A stretch of DNA of 64,000 nt from Archangium sp. GTDB taxonomy: Bacteria > Myxococcota > Myxococcia > Myxococcales > Myxococcaceae. Every line of letters starts with the position of its first letter. The first letter of the stretch is position 1. Of the stretch, positions 44,497-52,569 are shown piece by piece. The stretch lies in assembly GCA_030695565.1 (NCBI GenBank), contig JAUYRZ010000103.1, positions 1 through 64,000 of the forward strand, read 5' to 3'. Position numbers and translations under genes: made by a program. The notes beneath the pieces are model-generated. The model did no database searches and was not told where the DNA came from. It worked only from the letters and a program-made list of their open reading frames with translations.

Positions 44497-44574
44497 CGAA
44501 GTGCGTCTGAATGTCAGCGCCACGGTACACGCGTGTGGATCTCCGAGCACACCGCTACGATGCGCGCCTCTTCG

Positions 44575-47500
44575 ATGGCGAGCACAGGGGAACAGCTAGG
44601 TCGGTATCACCTCGTTCGCAAACTCGCGCAGGGCGGCATGGCAGAGGTGTTTCTCGCCAAGGTCATGGGCCCCGGCGGGTTCGAGAAGTCGCTCGTCATC
44701 AAGCGCATCCTCCCCAACCTCGCGAAGGATCCCGAGTTCGTCTCCATGTTCCTTCAGGAGGCGCGGTTGGCGGCCCAGTTCGGCCACCCCGCGGTGGTGC
44801 AGATCTTCGACTTCGGTGAAGTGAACGGCTCGTACTTCCTGGCGATGGAGTTCGTCGACGGCCCGAACCTCCGCAGCATTCTCCGCGCGGCCCCGGAGAA
44901 ACGGATCAGCCCCGTCGTCGGCGCGCGGGTCATCGAAGAGGCCTGCGAAGGCCTCGCCTACGTGCACGAGTTCGCCGACGCATCGGGCGTGCCGATGGGG
45001 CTGATGCACTGCGACGTCAGCACCGACAACCTGCTGATCGCCAAGAACGGCGCCGTGAAGGTGGTCGACTTCGGCGTGGCCAAGGGCGCAGGCCAGGAGT
45101 CCAACGCGGCCCCCGGCACGGTGAAGGGCAAGATCGCCTACATGCCGCCGGAGCAGATCATCGGCGAGGCCGACCTGCGCGCCGACGTCTACGCGCTCGG
45201 CGTCATCCTCTACGAGCTCGCTTCGGGCACCCGGCCCTACGAGAGCCAGCCTGATCAGCAGCTGCTCGCCGCCATCATCACCACCGACCCCGTGCCGCTG
45301 CTCACGCGGCGCTCCGACATTCCGCGCGAGTACGCCCAGATCGTGCACAAGGCGATGGCCAAGAACCTCTCGCAGCGGTTCCAGAACTGCCGCGAGCTGG
45401 CCGCCGCGCTCGAAGAATTCGTGGCGAACTCCGGGCAACGCGTGGGCACCCGGCAACTCGCCGCGCTCGCCGCGCAGTTCCAGGAGGCGCCCGAAGGTCA
45501 GCCCTCCACGGGCACCCCGGTGCTGGCCACGCCCACGCCCGCGGCCCGGGTCAAGCAGCTCACGCCGGTGCCCACCTCGTCGCCGCGCATCGAGCTGAGG
45601 GCCGATCCCTTCGCAGCGTTCGGCGCCCCGCTGCCCAAGGCCCGGCCTTCCGCGCCGGCGCCCGCGCCCGCACCGCCCGTCTCCAGCTCACCCAGCCGCG
45701 CCGAGTCGCTCTTCAGCGACCTCTTCTCGGATCTCGATACGACGCCGCCCATTCCGCCCGGCGCTCCGGTGCCGCCCCCGCCTGCTCCGGCCGCGGCGGG
45801 AGACAGCTCGGAGATGAAGATCACCGTCGGCACCACGCGCGCGCCGCTGAGCATCGAGGCCTTCAACGCAGCCCGCGCGGCCGCCATCGCCGCTGCGGGG
45901 GGAGCGCCGCCGCCCGAGCCGCCTTCGCCACCGCCGCCTTCGGCCCCGCGGCCCGACACCGGGCGCATCGCCGGCGTGTTCACCTCGCCATCCCGGGTGC
46001 AGGAGCCGCCCAGACCTCCGGCGGTGGCCGTCGCCGTGGCGAAGCAGCCCACGCCGTTGCCGGTGGCCCGGGTGCAGGTGCTCAACACCCCCGAGGCGCG
46101 CGCGGCCCTGGTGATGGCCGATGCGTCGAACATGCGGCTGTACGAGCCGGGCGCGCCGCTGGCGTCGCTCGAGGTGCTCGAGTCGCTGCGGCGCCAGTTC
46201 GAGCTCGATGACACGTTGAACGTGATGGTGCGGTTCCCGCTGCACGCGCACCGCTTGCTGAGCGCGAAGGATGCCGAGGTGCTGGTCGCCGAGCGCATCA
46301 CCGGCGCAGTCGAGGGCCTGCTGCTCGCCGAAGCGTGGGGCGCGTTGGCCACGTTGCTGGAAAAATTGCGGGCCGCTTCGAACGCCGACGGCCACCAACG
46401 CGCCCTCTACGAGCTCGCGCTGTCCACCCTGGCCACCGGTGATCAAGCGCGCCGCATCTCGCAGCGGCTGCGTGAGGCGCCGCCCTCCGACATGGAGGGG
46501 CTCGGCCGGCTGCTGCCTTTCTTCGGAGCGCCTTTCGCGCGGGTGTGGCTCACCTTGTTCGAGAACCTCGATCTCCCCGCCAGCCGCGACGCGGTGCTGC
46601 CGGGGCTCGCGGGTCTGGCAGGGCTGAACCCCGAACCGTTCCTCGAGAAGCTCGCGCCCAAACGCCCCCGCCGCCTGATGGAGCTGGCCTTCTGCGTGGA
46701 GACCGGCCGGGTGCCCGATCGCCAGCGCATCATCAAAGAGCTGCTCGCCCGGCTCGATGCAGGCCGCCGCCGCGACGTGTTGACCGGTGTCGCGCGCGCC
46801 GCGACGGAGGACGCCTTCCGGGTGATCACCCAGGCGATCACCGACGAGCCCCCGCGCGCCAGCGGGCAAGAAGCCGACGCCGCTGCCGACCTTCAGGAGA
46901 CGCGGGTTCACGCGTTGCACCTGCTCGGCAAGTACTTCCCCGACCGCGTGTTGCCCGCGTTGCAGCCTCTCCTCACACCGCAACGTTCGAGCGAGTCGAG
47001 CGAGCCGATTCGCCGCGCGATGTGGGTGGCCGCGGGCGCATCGACTTCACCGGCGGCCTTCGACCTCGTGGTCAACGAGCTCAACCAGAAGCCGCCGCTG
47101 CTGGGCCGGGTCAAACACGACGCGCGCAAGGTCGAGGTGCTCGAGGCGTTGTCGGTGATGAAGACGCCCCAGGCCGCTGAGCTGATGCGGCGCATGGCCA
47201 CCGACAAGGCGCTGAGCGACACCGTGCGGGCCGCGGCCGATCGTCACCTGCGCGCTGCCGAGTTGATCGAGCGCACCACCACCGCGACGGTCGAATCGCG
47301 CCGGTGGGATCGCAACCCGCCCACGTGGAAAGACGTGCTGCTCGATCTCGCGTCGCTTGCGGGTGGTTCGCGCCTGGTCGAGGTCGACAGCGCCACCTTC
47401 GACGTGGCGTTCGCGCGGATGTCGAAGTGTCTGGCCACGCTGTTGCCCGCCGGGACGCAGGCGGTCGTCAACTGCACCACCGGGCTCACCGTCAATGGCG

Positions 47501-48441
47501 AGCTCGTGCACGAAGGTTCGGATCCTTCCGTGGATCGCGTGGTCAAGGCGTTCCAGACCCGCGGCATCGGCGGCTTCACCTTCACCCGCCAACCCGCACG
47601 CGCCGAGCTGGAGCACCTGGTGCGCTGGCTGGCCGCAGGCGCTGCGGCGGAGAGCGTGGAGACGCCGTCCATCACGCTCTTGTCCACGGTGCCGAGCACG
47701 CCGAAGCCGCCGCCTCCCCCGGTGCGCGTGGCCGCGATGACCGACTTCTCGCGTGAGGCGATGATTCGGTACGTCGAGCTGGTGCTCTCGTTCCGCAGCT
47801 GGCTGTCGGCGCGGAAGACCAACCCGCGCGCCGAGATGCCGGTGGTCACGCAGTTGTTCCACGACCTGGCCGCGGCCGCGTCATCCCGGGCGCTGCGTTT
47901 TGCGGGCCTCACGCCGCGGGGCCGCAAGCGCGAGGCCGAGCTGTTTCATTCTGCCAACGTGCTGACGCTCTCGTTGCTGTTCGGTGGTGAGCTCGGGTTG
48001 CAGCAGCCGCAGCTGGTCGAGCTGGCGACGGCGGCGTTCTTCTCCGACGTGGGCAACCTGGAGCTGAAAGACGAGACGCTCGAGCGGGTGGGCCCGTTGA
48101 CCGACGCGGATCACCAGGACATCACCACCGCGCGGCGTTGGTCGGCGCGGTTTCCCTTCGTGCGGTTCGGCGACAAGCCGCAGGCGGTGGCGTGGGCCTC
48201 GGTGGTGCTGGAGCAGGAGACCGAGCCGGGCAGCACGGGTGCGCAGGGGTTGACGGCGAGCGTGGTGGCGCTGGCGCGTGCGTACGAGACGCTCACGTCG
48301 CCGACGGCCAGCCGCGAGGCGATGGGCCGCGATGAGGCGATCGAGGTGCTGACGCAGAAGGCGGCGCACCGGTTCAGGCCTGAGTTGCTCCCGTTGTTCC
48401 GCAGCTTCTTGCAGCGGCTGTCGACGCGTCAGCTCAGCTGA
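44575..48441 (+). CDS. Ser/Thr protein kinase fused to HEAT-like and degenerate HD-GYP regions
   Basis: With the ATG at 44575 the product is 1288 residues (in-frame upstream starts exist). Residues about 9-270 are a Hanks-type kinase: GGMAEV loop, Lys43 in VIKRI, HCD at 145-147, Asn152, DFG at 165-167, MPPEQ. HCD replaces HRD, so it is a non-RD kinase. A Pro/Ala-rich linker (about 290-500) follows, then helical HEAT-like segments. The last ~170 residues read as an HD-GYP domain (ELFHSANVLTLSLLFG, then ARAYETLTSPTASREAMGRD and HRFRPELLPLF). Its metal motif is SDVGN instead of HDIGK, so cyclic-di-GMP hydrolysis is unlikely. Confidence 0.85.
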   Translation: MASTGEQLGRYHLVRKLAQGGMAEVFLAKVMGPGGFEKSLVIKRILPNLAKDPEFVSMFLQEARLAAQFGHPAVVQIFDFGEVNGSYFLAMEFVDGPNLRSILRAAPEKRISPVVGARVIEEACEGLAYVHEFADASGVPMGLMHCDVSTDNLLIAKNGAVKVVDFGVAKGAGQESNAAPGTVKGKIAYMPPEQIIGEADLRADVYALGVILYELASGTRPYESQPDQQLLAAIITTDPVPLLTRRSDIPREYAQIVHKAMAKNLSQRFQNCRELAAALEEFVANSGQRVGTRQLAALAAQFQEAPEGQPSTGTPVLATPTPAARVKQLTPVPTSSPRIELRADPFAAFGAPLPKARPSAPAPAPAPPVSSSPSRAESLFSDLFSDLDTTPPIPPGAPVPPPPAPAAAGDSSEMKITVGTTRAPLSIEAFNAARAAAIAAAGGAPPPEPPSPPPPSAPRPDTGRIAGVFTSPSRVQEPPRPPAVAVAVAKQPTPLPVARVQVLNTPEARAALVMADASNMRLYEPGAPLASLEVLESLRRQFELDDTLNVMVRFPLHAHRLLSAKDAEVLVAERITGAVEGLLLAEAWGALATLLEKLRAASNADGHQRALYELALSTLATGDQARRISQRLREAPPSDMEGLGRLLPFFGAPFARVWLTLFENLDLPASRDAVLPGLAGLAGLNPEPFLEKLAPKRPRRLMELAFCVETGRVPDRQRIIKELLARLDAGRRRDVLTGVARAATEDAFRVITQAITDEPPRASGQEADAAADLQETRVHALHLLGKYFPDRVLPALQPLLTPQRSSESSEPIRRAMWVAAGASTSPAAFDLVVNELNQKPPLLGRVKHDARKVEVLEALSVMKTPQAAELMRRMATDKALSDTVRAAADRHLRAAELIERTTTATVESRRWDRNPPTWKDVLLDLASLAGGSRLVEVDSATFDVAFARMSKCLATLLPAGTQAVVNCTTGLTVNGELVHEGSDPSVDRVVKAFQTRGIGGFTFTRQPARAELEHLVRWLAAGAAAESVETPSITLLSTVPSTPKPPPPPVRVAAMTDFSREAMIRYVELVLSFRSWLSARKTNPRAEMPVVTQLFHDLAAAASSRALRFAGLTPRGRKREAELFHSANVLTLSLLFGGELGLQQPQLVELATAAFFSDVGNLELKDETLERVGPLTDADHQDITTARRWSARFPFVRFGDKPQAVAWASVVLEQETEPGSTGAQGLTASVVALARAYETLTSPTASREAMGRDEAIEVLTQKAAHRFRPELLPLFRSFLQRLSTRQLS

Positions 48442-48485: not shown

Positions 48486-49595
48486 TCAGCGCAAGACCAG
48501 CCGCTGGCGCAGCTCGAGATCGAACAGCTCGTACTCGACCGCCGCGACCCGGTGCATCGCCCCATCGAGGAACAGCAGCCGATCTTCGTCGCGGCAGCCC
48601 AGGTGGTACTCCACGCGCGCGCCGATCTCGAGACCGCGCAGACACCCCAGCTCGGGGATCTGGGTGAACGCCCACGGGCCCATCAGCTCGCGGCACTTCT
48701 TGTCGTTGATGTGGCCGATCACCTGCGTGATGCCCGGCGGCAACGAGCGCGGATCGTACCGGCGGCTGGCCCTGTCGACCTGCTTGCTGGCGGGATTGGC
48801 CGGCCGGTGCGCGAGAATGCCGCGCGCTTCTCCGTCACGCGCCGAGCCGAGCTCATGGAGCGGGGCGAGATCGAGCGCGCCTTCACCTCTCCACTTCGTC
48901 ACCCGCGCCTCGAGGAAACGGTTCAGCAGCTCGGCGATGGAGAGCGCGTCGAGCGCCACGGGCTCGAGCGGTTCGAGATCCGCCAGGGTGACGCCCGCGT
49001 GTACCAGCAACAGATCCGGCGCCGGGGCCAGGGCGAGTTTCACCCTGCGGGCCTTGAGCAACCGCGTCACCAGGGTGCGCTGCCGCACGCTGAAGCACGA
49101 GTAGTCGCGGGTGATGACGCCGGGGCTCGCCAGCATCGGGTAGCGCGCCAACAACGCGGCCTGCTGCTGCGGCTGCACGGCGAGGTCTGCCAACGCGCGT
49201 GCTTCGCTGAAGGTCGCGTCGGTAAAACCACTCAGCTCACCGACCCGAACCAGGTCGTGGTTACCCACCAGAATCTTCACCTGGTCGGGTGGATGCGCGG
49301 CGAGCCAGGAGAGCAGGGCCGTGCCTTCTTCCGTCGCCTTCTCGCGATCGTCGGGGCGGCCCCAGTCGAAGTGATCGCCCATCGAGACCAGCCCCACCTC
49401 GGGGCGCAGGCGGCCGTCGTCTGCGAGCAGGCCGTTCAGGTCGAGGATGCTGAAGAACTTCTCCAGCGGCGCCTGGGGGTCGCCCACCGCCACGTGGAGC
49501 TGCCGGGGCACTGCGTCCGGAGCGGAAAGCGTGAGCGCGTCGGCGTCTTCCTGGGCGCGCAGCTGGGCTTTGACGACGCGGCGATCGGGCGACAC
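48486..49595 (-). CDS. Calcineurin-like metallophosphoesterase
   Basis: The GTG at 49595 is preferred because the recognisable domain starts soon after it. The 369-residue protein shows the metallophosphatase blocks: VAVGDPQAP (a GDxQ variant of GDxH), MGDHFDWG, ILVGNHDLV, LLLVHAGV and IGHINDK. It may dephosphorylate phosphoproteins or small phosphoesters. It is divergent (42 bases) from a Ser/Thr kinase gene and convergent with another. That placement suggests, but does not prove, a kinase/phosphatase set. Confidence 0.8.
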   Translation of the reverse strand: MSPDRRVVKAQLRAQEDADALTLSAPDAVPRQLHVAVGDPQAPLEKFFSILDLNGLLADDGRLRPEVGLVSMGDHFDWGRPDDREKATEEGTALLSWLAAHPPDQVKILVGNHDLVRVGELSGFTDATFSEARALADLAVQPQQQAALLARYPMLASPGVITRDYSCFSVRQRTLVTRLLKARRVKLALAPAPDLLLVHAGVTLADLEPLEPVALDALSIAELLNRFLEARVTKWRGEGALDLAPLHELGSARDGEARGILAHRPANPASKQVDRASRRYDPRSLPPGITQVIGHINDKKCRELMGPWAFTQIPELGCLRGLEIGARVEYHLGCRDEDRLLFLDGAMHRVAAVEYELFDLELRQRLVLR

Positions 49596-49637
49596 GGCTG
49601 CATCATCGCACGGCGCGCTTCGGCTACACTCGTCACA

Positions 49638-51065
49638 GTGAATGCAGGGGGCGACACCGTCGAACGCGCGATCCTCTTTGAAGACGCGTTCGGGTACCGC
49701 CGGCTCAGCGCCCGAAGGTGCCTCGAGACGTGGCTGTCGGAGTACGACTATTCGTTGCTCCAGGTCGACCTCGGGCTGCGCGAGACGGGCCCTGCGCTCT
49801 TCGTCATCTTGCGCTTTCGGGAAGACCGCTTCACCGAGACCACCCATGCCGCGCTCGTCGGTGGAGGTGAGCATGCGGGCGGGCGCGTGGTGGCCTTGAG
49901 CGAGCTCGAGTACCAGGAGCGGGGCCACTTCTTGTCCCGCTTCGCGGAGTGCGGGCTGCAGAAGCTGGGGCTCGCCCCGGACGAGGTGACCTCCGCGCTC
50001 GATGAGGTCTTCTCGAGGGTGGAGGAGCGGCGGGCTTCGGTGCGCCACCCCATCATCGCGCCCGTGGCGGTGCCTGAAGTGCGGCAGCGGCTCGCTTCGC
50101 AGCCGCCGGCCAAACTGGAGATCCCGGTGACCGCCGCGGCGTTGGTCACGGCGCCTGTGCCTTCGGCCGAGCTCGACCGGGTCGGCCCCTACGAGTTGCT
50201 CTCGCTGTTGGGGTCTGGTGGCACCAGCGACGTGCACTTCGCGCGAGTGACGGAAGGTCCCCGCGAGGGGGAGTACGTCGCGGTGAAGCGGCTGCACAAA
50301 CGCCGCGCGCAGGATCCCTCGGCGGTGCGCGCCTTCGAGGCTGAAGCGAAGACGCTCTCGTTGTTGAAGCACCCGAACATCGTGCGCGCGCTCGACACGC
50401 TGGTGGTCGACGGCCACCACTGCCTGGTGATGGAGGTCATCGAAGGGCGTGACCTCGGCCAGATTCTTCGCCGCTGCCGCTCGCGCAAGAAGCAGCTGCC
50501 CATCGACGTGGCCTGCTTCATGGCGAAGGTGTTGCTCGATGCGCTCGGTGCGGTGCACGGCGCGAAGGATGAGACGGGCGCTGCGCTCGAGCTGGTGCAC
50601 GGCGACGTGTCACCTCACAACCTGTTCGTCTCGAAGGTCGGCCTCGTCAAGCTGGGTGACTTCGGGCTCGCGAGACGTGCGGGTACCGAGGGCGCGCGCG
50701 CGGTGAAAGAGGGGCGGCCCAGCTATCTGTCGCCTGACGCGCTGTCGGGTGAAGTCGCGACCTCGAGCGATCTCTGGGCGGCGGCGGTGACGCTGTATGA
50801 GTTGCTCACGCTGGAGCAGCCGTTCGTGGGCAACACCCTCGACGAGTTGACGAGCGCCATTCGCAGCGCCCGTGAAGTGCCTTTGCGCGAGCGGCGTGAC
50901 GAGTGTTCAGGACCGCTCGAAGCGGTGCTGCGACAAGCGCTCGAGAAGAACCGCGCGCTGCGATTTCAGAACGCCAAAGCCTTCGCCGATGCGGTCTCGG
51001 TGCACTTCCACCCCGTGCGCACCCCGATGCGGGTCGCCAGCGTGGTTCGCGACCTCTACGCCTGA
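49638..51065 (+). CDS. Ser/Thr protein kinase with a novel N-terminal region
   Basis: A GTG start gives 475 residues. Residues 1-180 form an uncharacterised region (ERAILFEDAFGYRRLSARR and VVALSELEYQERGHFLSRF) that may be a small regulatory domain. Residues about 183-455 are a kinase: LGSGGTSDV, Lys217 in VAVKRL, HGD at 321-323 (non-RD), Asn328, DFG at 341-343 and YLSPD in the P+1 loop. No membrane helix is seen, so it should be cytoplasmic. The MglA-like gene starts 51 bases later and may be co-transcribed. Confidence 0.85.
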   Translation: MNAGGDTVERAILFEDAFGYRRLSARRCLETWLSEYDYSLLQVDLGLRETGPALFVILRFREDRFTETTHAALVGGGEHAGGRVVALSELEYQERGHFLSRFAECGLQKLGLAPDEVTSALDEVFSRVEERRASVRHPIIAPVAVPEVRQRLASQPPAKLEIPVTAAALVTAPVPSAELDRVGPYELLSLLGSGGTSDVHFARVTEGPREGEYVAVKRLHKRRAQDPSAVRAFEAEAKTLSLLKHPNIVRALDTLVVDGHHCLVMEVIEGRDLGQILRRCRSRKKQLPIDVACFMAKVLLDALGAVHGAKDETGAALELVHGDVSPHNLFVSKVGLVKLGDFGLARRAGTEGARAVKEGRPSYLSPDALSGEVATSSDLWAAAVTLYELLTLEQPFVGNTLDELTSAIRSAREVPLRERRDECSGPLEAVLRQALEKNRALRFQNAKAFADAVSVHFHPVRTPMRVASVVRDLYA

Positions 51066-51116: not shown

Positions 51117-51767
51117 ATGCGTTTCGCCTGGCTCCTCCTCTTCGCCTCCACCACTGCCTCTGCCGCGTACATCGATTACGAGAAGAGGGAGATCAACCTC
51201 AAGGTCGTCTACGTCTCCGCCACCGACGGCGCGCACGCGAACCTCGAGTACGTCTTCTCGAAGACGAACCCGGAAGCGAAGGGCAAGGCCACCATCACCA
51301 CGGTGCCGTCGCCCAAAGGCAGCGCGGTGAAGTACTTCGACTTCCTCCCGCTGGCGCTCGGTGAGATCCGCGGCTTCAAGGTTCGTTTTCACCTCTACGG
51401 CGTGCGCTCTGAGAAGCAGGACACCGCGGTGAAGCTCGTGCTCAAGGGCGCCGACGGCATCGTCTTCGTGGCCAGCGCCGCACCGCACGCGCAGAAGGAC
51501 AACCGCGTGGTGTTCGACCGTCTCAAGTCAGACCTCGCCGCGCAGGGTTACGACCTCAAGTCGATGCCGTTCGTGCTGCAGCTCGACACGGATGGCGTGA
51601 CGGACCCGGTGACCCTCGAGGCGCTGCGAAAGACACTGGGGCTCGGAGAAACGACGGCCTTCACCGCGACGCCGACGAGCGGGCAGGGCGTGTTCGATAC
51701 GCTCAAAGGCATCGCCAAGCTGACGTTGATGGAGCTGAAGAAGGGCGCCGCGGACGCGGGTCGTTGA
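51117..51767 (+). CDS. Exported MglA-like pseudo-GTPase
   Basis: The 216-residue product begins with a Sec signal peptide (MRFAWLLLFASTTASA) and then follows the MglA pattern: AYIDYEKREINLKVVY, KTNPEAKGK, FDFLPLALGEIRGFKVRFHL, VLKGADGIVFVA, LKSDLAAQGYDLKSMPFVLQ and LRKTLG. The nucleotide-binding motifs are lost: the P-loop is SATDGAHAN with no GKT, the PGQ-type switch is GVRSEKQ, and NKxD is DTDG. It therefore probably cannot bind GTP and would act outside the cytoplasm. A GAGG lies before the ATG. It follows a Ser/Thr kinase by 51 bases. Confidence 0.78.
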   Translation: MRFAWLLLFASTTASAAYIDYEKREINLKVVYVSATDGAHANLEYVFSKTNPEAKGKATITTVPSPKGSAVKYFDFLPLALGEIRGFKVRFHLYGVRSEKQDTAVKLVLKGADGIVFVASAAPHAQKDNRVVFDRLKSDLAAQGYDLKSMPFVLQLDTDGVTDPVTLEALRKTLGLGETTAFTATPTSGQGVFDTLKGIAKLTLMELKKGAADAGR

Positions 51768-51957: not shown

Positions 51958-52569
51958 ATGCGCACGACTTCGCTGCTGAAACTGGTGCTCGTCACTCTTG
52001 GTTCCACCGCAGCAGCGCAACCCTTGACGGGTGGAGCGGCCGTGCCTGTGAGGCTGCAGGTCACCTGGGCTTCGCCGCTCCCGGTGCCTGAGGGCGCCAC
52101 CATCAGGCTCGAGGTCACCAGCCCGGGGATCAGCGTCACCACCATCACCAACCACTGGAGAGCCGTGGGACCCACCGACCGCAGCCTCGACGTGCCCTTG
52201 CCGGATCGTGAGGTGTTCGAATCGACGCTCCGCCGCGCCGGCGACTGCCAGCGGGTCACGCCGACGCAGGCGCGCCTGGGCTGGTTGTCGCTGGGGGTGT
52301 GGGTGGGAGGCGCTCGGCTTGGTCAACTCGATCTGTTCGATGGGAAGACGCCGTTGCTCGTGGGCTACGCCGACACCGACTCGCAGCAGCCCGCTTCTCC
52401 CCCTTGCAAGGTGATCGGCGCACCCGTGTTTTCCGCCGGGTGGAATGTGCTTCGAGTTCCAGAAGGAGCGAAGGGTACGGCCGAGCCTCTTCGGGGGCCG
52501 CTGACCGCTCGGTATGTCTCGGCACTGCCCACGCCGAAGGCAACCAGGGTGCGCTCACGCGCACCGTAG
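51958..52569 (+). CDS. Exported protein of unknown function
   Basis: The ATG at 51958 gives a Sec signal (MRTTSLLKLVLVTLGSTAAA) and a 203-residue product; an upstream in-frame start would bury the signal. The mature part is beta-rich (VPVRLQVTWASPLPVPEGATIRL...) with two Cys. I do not recognise a family. The 190 bases upstream contain no gene. It lies 190 bases from the MglA-like gene, so co-transcription is possible but unsupported. Confidence 0.6.
   Translation: MRTTSLLKLVLVTLGSTAAAQPLTGGAAVPVRLQVTWASPLPVPEGATIRLEVTSPGISVTTITNHWRAVGPTDRSLDVPLPDREVFESTLRRAGDCQRVTPTQARLGWLSLGVWVGGARLGQLDLFDGKTPLLVGYADTDSQQPASPPCKVIGAPVFSAGWNVLRVPEGAKGTAEPLRGPLTARYVSALPTPKATRVRSRAP

Follow-up and report, generated by a model that had tools for sequence, protein, structure and literature searches.

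The window, by which we mean the whole 64,000-nucleotide stretch of Archangium sp. DNA analysed here, carries an intact open reading frame whose product joins a predicted signal peptide to a homologue of MglA, the gliding-motility GTPase (Table 1). Codons 1-62 contain no alternative in-frame ATG, GTG or TTG start, the first possible one being codon 63, and the N-terminal extension therefore cannot be skipped.

Table 1. The MglA-like gene with a predicted signal peptide, its parts, and the kinase region upstream of it in the window.
Feature	Position	Strand	Basis or remark
Intact ORF, 216 aa	51117..51767	+	ATG start
Sec-type signal peptide MRFAWLLLFASTTASA	51117..51164	+	Codons 1-16; best cleavage between ASA and AY
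Mature MglA-like domain, 200 aa, without cysteine, G1-G4 lost	51165..51764	+	phmmer, AlphaFold2, VIA-align, motif counts
Former P-loop SATDGAHA, codons 34-41 (MglA: GPGLCGKTT)	51216..51239	+	Alignments, motif counts
Stop codon	51765..51767	+	ORF reading
Upstream Ser/Thr kinase domain region	50190..51065	+	Pfam Pkinase 2.5e-34; pairing not conserved

The putative signal has a single Arg, an n-region of net charge +1, a short hydrophobic core and an Ala-Ser-Ala end, and both a lipobox Cys and a twin Arg are absent from it. In an approximate weight-matrix scan the best cleavage site fell after residue 16, between TTASA and AYI; its score of 13.0 exceeds the 99.9th percentile of shuffled sequences, and the normal MglA of the same genome scored negative. 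The junction with the MglA-like part lies exactly at the position of MglA Ser2. Thus the proposal, made earlier from the sequence alone, that a Sec signal with an ASA site is fused where MglA would start agrees with the predicted cleavage site and with the alignment.

A phmmer search of PDB sequences matched residues 17-212 to M. xanthus MglA (5ymx, E 2.5e-46) over the whole MglA length, as expected from the earlier claim that the mature part follows MglA from its N-terminus to near its end. Identity to the genome's own MglA is 46%. To define invariant residues we used a reference set of 89 distinct ordinary MglAs, in all of which GxxxxGKT, PGQ and NKRD are kept. The window protein retains 0/21 invariant residues in G1-G4 and 65/108 at other positions (Fisher p 5.6e-8). 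The P-loop GPGLCGKT is replaced by SATDGA-HA, which is one residue shorter, TVPGQ by GVRSEK and NKRD by DTDG, and the arginine finger Arg53 and the Mg-binding Thr54 of G2 are missing. The replacement of the P-loop, the PGQ-type switch and the NKxD motif that the sequence-only reading described is therefore complete at the invariant G-motif positions. Neither GTP binding nor GTP hydrolysis is predicted from these motif losses.

AlphaFold2 was given an input alignment of four sequences only, those of the window protein and its three relatives (below), and modelled the mature window protein with pLDDT 81.5 and pTM 0.84. MglA structures were the top matches of this model (Foldseek 1.3e-21 to 6izw; VIA-align Z 27.6 to 6h17, rmsd 1.9 over 191 aligned residues), and other Ras-like proteins scored well under MglA, at about Z 17-18. 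The most divergent relative, in genome G023, also has an MglA fold (pLDDT 77.3; Z 25.9 to 6izw). The comparison of a predicted structure with MglA, which had been suggested as a check, thus returned an MglA-like model. Both sequence and fold make the window protein an MglA homologue, but it stands outside the GTPases because G1-G4 are absent. It has the sequence and fold properties of a pseudoGTPase: a GTPase fold established by homology and structure, and a loss of motifs common to four members, which keep 0-4 of the 21 residues.

How widespread is this design? We searched 96 Myxococcaceae genomes, 145 of the order and 195 of the phylum Myxococcota, and found exactly three relatives, all in Myxococcaceae: one in the window's genus (G003), one in a second genus (G052, a complete genome in one contig of 12,489,432 bases) and one in a third (G023). 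With the window genome included, these proteins, which for brevity we call the exported members, occur in 4/96 Myxococcaceae genomes. No more than these four were detected in the order, the phylum or a wider contig collection, where very divergent members that score below MglA could have escaped notice, and the sole match in a plasmid search was an Arf-like sequence from Deinococcus. The three relatives are 36-56% identical to the window protein. Each keeps 2-4 of the 21 motif residues and, judged by those residues, would have no working nucleotide site. The P-loop pattern GxxxxGK[ST] (G1) occurs in 0/4 exported members as against 89/89 MglAs. None of the four matched any Pfam or NCBIfam family significantly, and the window genome's normal MglA matched Arf in the same databases. 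In the literature searched we found no description of an exported or bacterial pseudoGTPase of such kind, and signal peptides go unmentioned in a 2014 survey of prokaryotic Ras-like GTPases.

All three relatives carry signal peptides of their own, ending in ASA before SF in G003, AFG before SS in G052 and AFA before ST in G023, with the junction at the equivalent of MglA Ser2. A search for orthologues that combine a signal peptide with the same motif losses, the other check proposed at the outset, thus found both features in every relative. By the approximate weight matrix, the exported proteins have an n-h-c signal with small residues at -3 and -1 and no lipobox, and the mature proteins would be exported and released by cleavage. 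The N-terminal segment might instead be an uncleaved inner-membrane anchor, leaving the domain tethered in the periplasm, or in the cytoplasm if inverted. The G052 signal, slightly longer at 21 amino acids and ending in AFG, would suit an anchor. However, the hydrophobic stretches are short, and small -3 and -1 residues stand at the exact MglA junction in 4/4 proteins, as is typical of cleavable signals. We therefore regard an anchor as unlikely. Cysteine content was also compared: it is zero in three of the exported proteins and one in the remaining protein, against two or three in 88/89 MglAs. Such a low content suits an oxidising compartment.

The four exported proteins form one clade (support 96/95). 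The clade was recovered with support 97/87 after the motif columns were removed and a P-loop-altered cytosolic MglA paralogue was added; this fast-evolving paralogue served as a long-branch control, and long branches are still a caution in reading these values. A single origin is in agreement with the shared derived residues, for example Val18, Pro107 and Gly52 (three of four).

Mutual identity among the exported proteins is 33-56%, compared with a mean of 85% among MglAs, and synonymous sites are saturated. Rapid divergence of this kind, a sporadic distribution and the lack of conserved neighbours could all be expected of a decaying duplicate, in which an accidental fusion to a signal peptide was followed by functionless drift. 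We consider such decay distinctly improbable. The four ORFs are intact and equal in length, with a coding-type GC3 of 0.89-0.99 that has been kept despite deep divergence, and for this reason the genes are read as being under selection and not as decaying pseudogenes. Moreover, retention is uneven along the proteins, and drift would not empty the nucleotide site alone while sparing helix alpha5 and the interswitch region.

The genomic surroundings differ in every genome. Across the four genomes compared, we saw no neighbour shared between exported copies, although some neighbour-gene names come from by-eye reading of sequence. The G003 copy follows a coiled-coil gene, the G052 copy lies between a LysM/CHAP gene and an acyl-CoA dehydrogenase gene, and the G023 copy lies just upstream of ATP synthase genes. 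The exported gene apparently moves by itself, as one unit. Since no neighbour is shared, a partner, if it is a protein, would be encoded elsewhere. The normal MglA of the window genome (G000:C34) has MglB, a Roadblock-domain protein, directly upstream.

The sequence-only reading drew attention to a Ser/Thr kinase gene that ends 51 bases upstream on the same strand, and hinted at a link between the two genes. The gap is real. A partnership in which the exported protein is, for example, a substrate or sensor of this kinase would account for the arrangement, but the kinase domain is the only Pfam match in that ORF, orthologues of the kinase in G003 and G002 do not adjoin the exported gene, and different genes flank the other exported copies. 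A conserved kinase partnership was rejected on these grounds, and we give a partnership of any kind almost no weight. Because neighbours differ in every genome, the adjacency is probably a coincidence.

Several neighbouring genes are worth recording in their own right. A metallophosphatase-like gene (minus strand, weak Pfam match) stands beside the Ser/Thr kinase (plus strand) at window 48486-51065. The kinase orthologues in G003 and G002 also have an opposite-strand neighbour resembling the metallophosphatase-like gene, giving similar divergent pairs at G003:C22 (L166) and G002:C486 (L168), and the two genes may be a working kinase/phosphatase pair. Further upstream, window 44533-48441 holds a 1302-aa ORF with an N-terminal Ser/Thr kinase domain and a C-terminal HD-type domain (HD_5, weak, just below the cut-off). 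Downstream, at 51958-52566, lies a small ORF with a signal-like N-terminus and no Pfam match; among the Myxococcaceae genomes searched it occurs in only one other (G061, 79% identical), in which no exported gene was found.

What has been kept in a protein that has lost its nucleotide site? We counted how many of the four sequences retain each MglA-invariant residue. Mean retention was 0.48 in the G motifs, 3.0 in the interswitch hairpin (beta2-beta3, residues 57-77), 3.15 in alpha5 (residues 173-193) and 1.96 elsewhere. The interswitch and alpha5 together differ from the rest with p 1.8e-4, an optimistic value since the regions were chosen after inspecting the data. In MglA, the C-terminal helix of MglB occupies a pocket away from the nucleotide site, formed by alpha5 and the beta2-beta3 region, where it contacts Lys181, Lys185, Leu64 and Ile67, and the Glu-rich helix of RomR has been suggested to share this pocket (PMC6785124). 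K181 and K185, which correspond to K197 and K201 of the window protein, are kept in 4/4 exported proteins, and L64 and I67 in 3/4, both being lost in the G052 member. This pattern of residues suggests that the nucleotide-free exported protein may still use the helix-binding face. The reading is no more than suggestive, since core strands form part of the region and the literature-defined MglB contact set alone gives a retention p of 0.035; conservation of the face, which overlaps the buried beta-sheet core, may be partly structural.

Retention of the MglB/RomR-helix face without the GTPase motifs could also be read as the mark of a secreted decoy, which would enter the cytoplasm of other myxobacterial cells, bind MglB or RomR and jam the polarity switch. 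Strain-specific competition genes show a similarly patchy distribution. However, Sec export offers no route into another cytoplasm, and neither a delivery module nor an immunity gene nor a toxin neighbourhood was seen at the loci. We therefore think a decoy highly improbable.

We consider it likely that the exported protein descends from MglA and is now a pseudoGTPase without nucleotide, serving as a passive scaffold for binding, either periplasmic or extracellular. MglA would have been duplicated, and in one copy a Sec signal peptide would have replaced the first residue. Loss of the nucleotide site would have come next, as expected after a move to a compartment without GTP, and the mature protein would have kept the MglA fold in its role as a scaffold. 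The likeliest binding surface would be the interswitch hairpin together with alpha5. Because MglB and RomR are cytoplasmic, the old partners are unavailable outside; the surface that holds the acidic MglB C-terminal helix in MglA, and probably the Glu-rich helix of RomR, may now bind another exported protein. A more specific proposal, which we advance tentatively and hold to be possible rather than probable, is that these proteins are nucleotide-independent, helix-binding envelope adaptors that reuse the allosteric MglB/RomR helix pocket for an extracytoplasmic partner, and so make up a previously undescribed, as far as our searches go, family of exported prokaryotic pseudoGTPases. The sequence-only reading suggested that the polarity system had supplied a structural module for some task in the envelope. 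This suggestion is partly supported: such a recruitment fits, and the envelope task is putative.

Why does such a small family matter? A GTP switch and a cytoplasmic life are the defining traits of Ras-like small GTPases; the exported family, to judge by its sequences, keeps the fold and drops both. It is a natural experiment that separates the parts of MglA that handle nucleotide from those that bind partners. It also illustrates one route to a pseudoenzyme, the re-addressing of a protein to a compartment that lacks its ligand. As the G052 genome is complete in a single contig, a cultured strain is possible, and hence genetics.

The closest known system is MglA itself (Myxococcus xanthus MXAN_1925), with which the window protein shares full-length homology, the fold, the N-terminal beta0 strand, the interswitch sequence FDFLPL-LGEIRGFK and alpha5 with K181/K185. 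It differs from MglA in its signal peptide, in the loss of G1-G4 (the Arg53 finger among them) and in having no adjacent mglB; its genome also has a normal mglBA pair elsewhere. A second MglA paralogue in G052 (L169:2072-2710, minus strand, P0002; at about 6044571-6045209 of G052:C1) is likewise an MglA homologue with an altered P-loop (GPDLAGQKT) and switch 2 (no PGQ). However, it is without a signal peptide, keeps NKRD and falls outside the exported clade, and it is possibly a cytosolic, half-degenerate MglA. Among eukaryotic proteins, the kinetochore pseudoGTPase CENP-M is also a nucleotide-free structural scaffold with a small G-protein fold (PMC10211241), but it is not exported, represents a separate lineage within the fold and has a known partner. 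Similarly, the pseudoGTPase domains of p190RhoGAP have GTPase folds with degenerate nucleotide sites (PMC5593906), although they are domains within a large cytoplasmic protein that is not exported.
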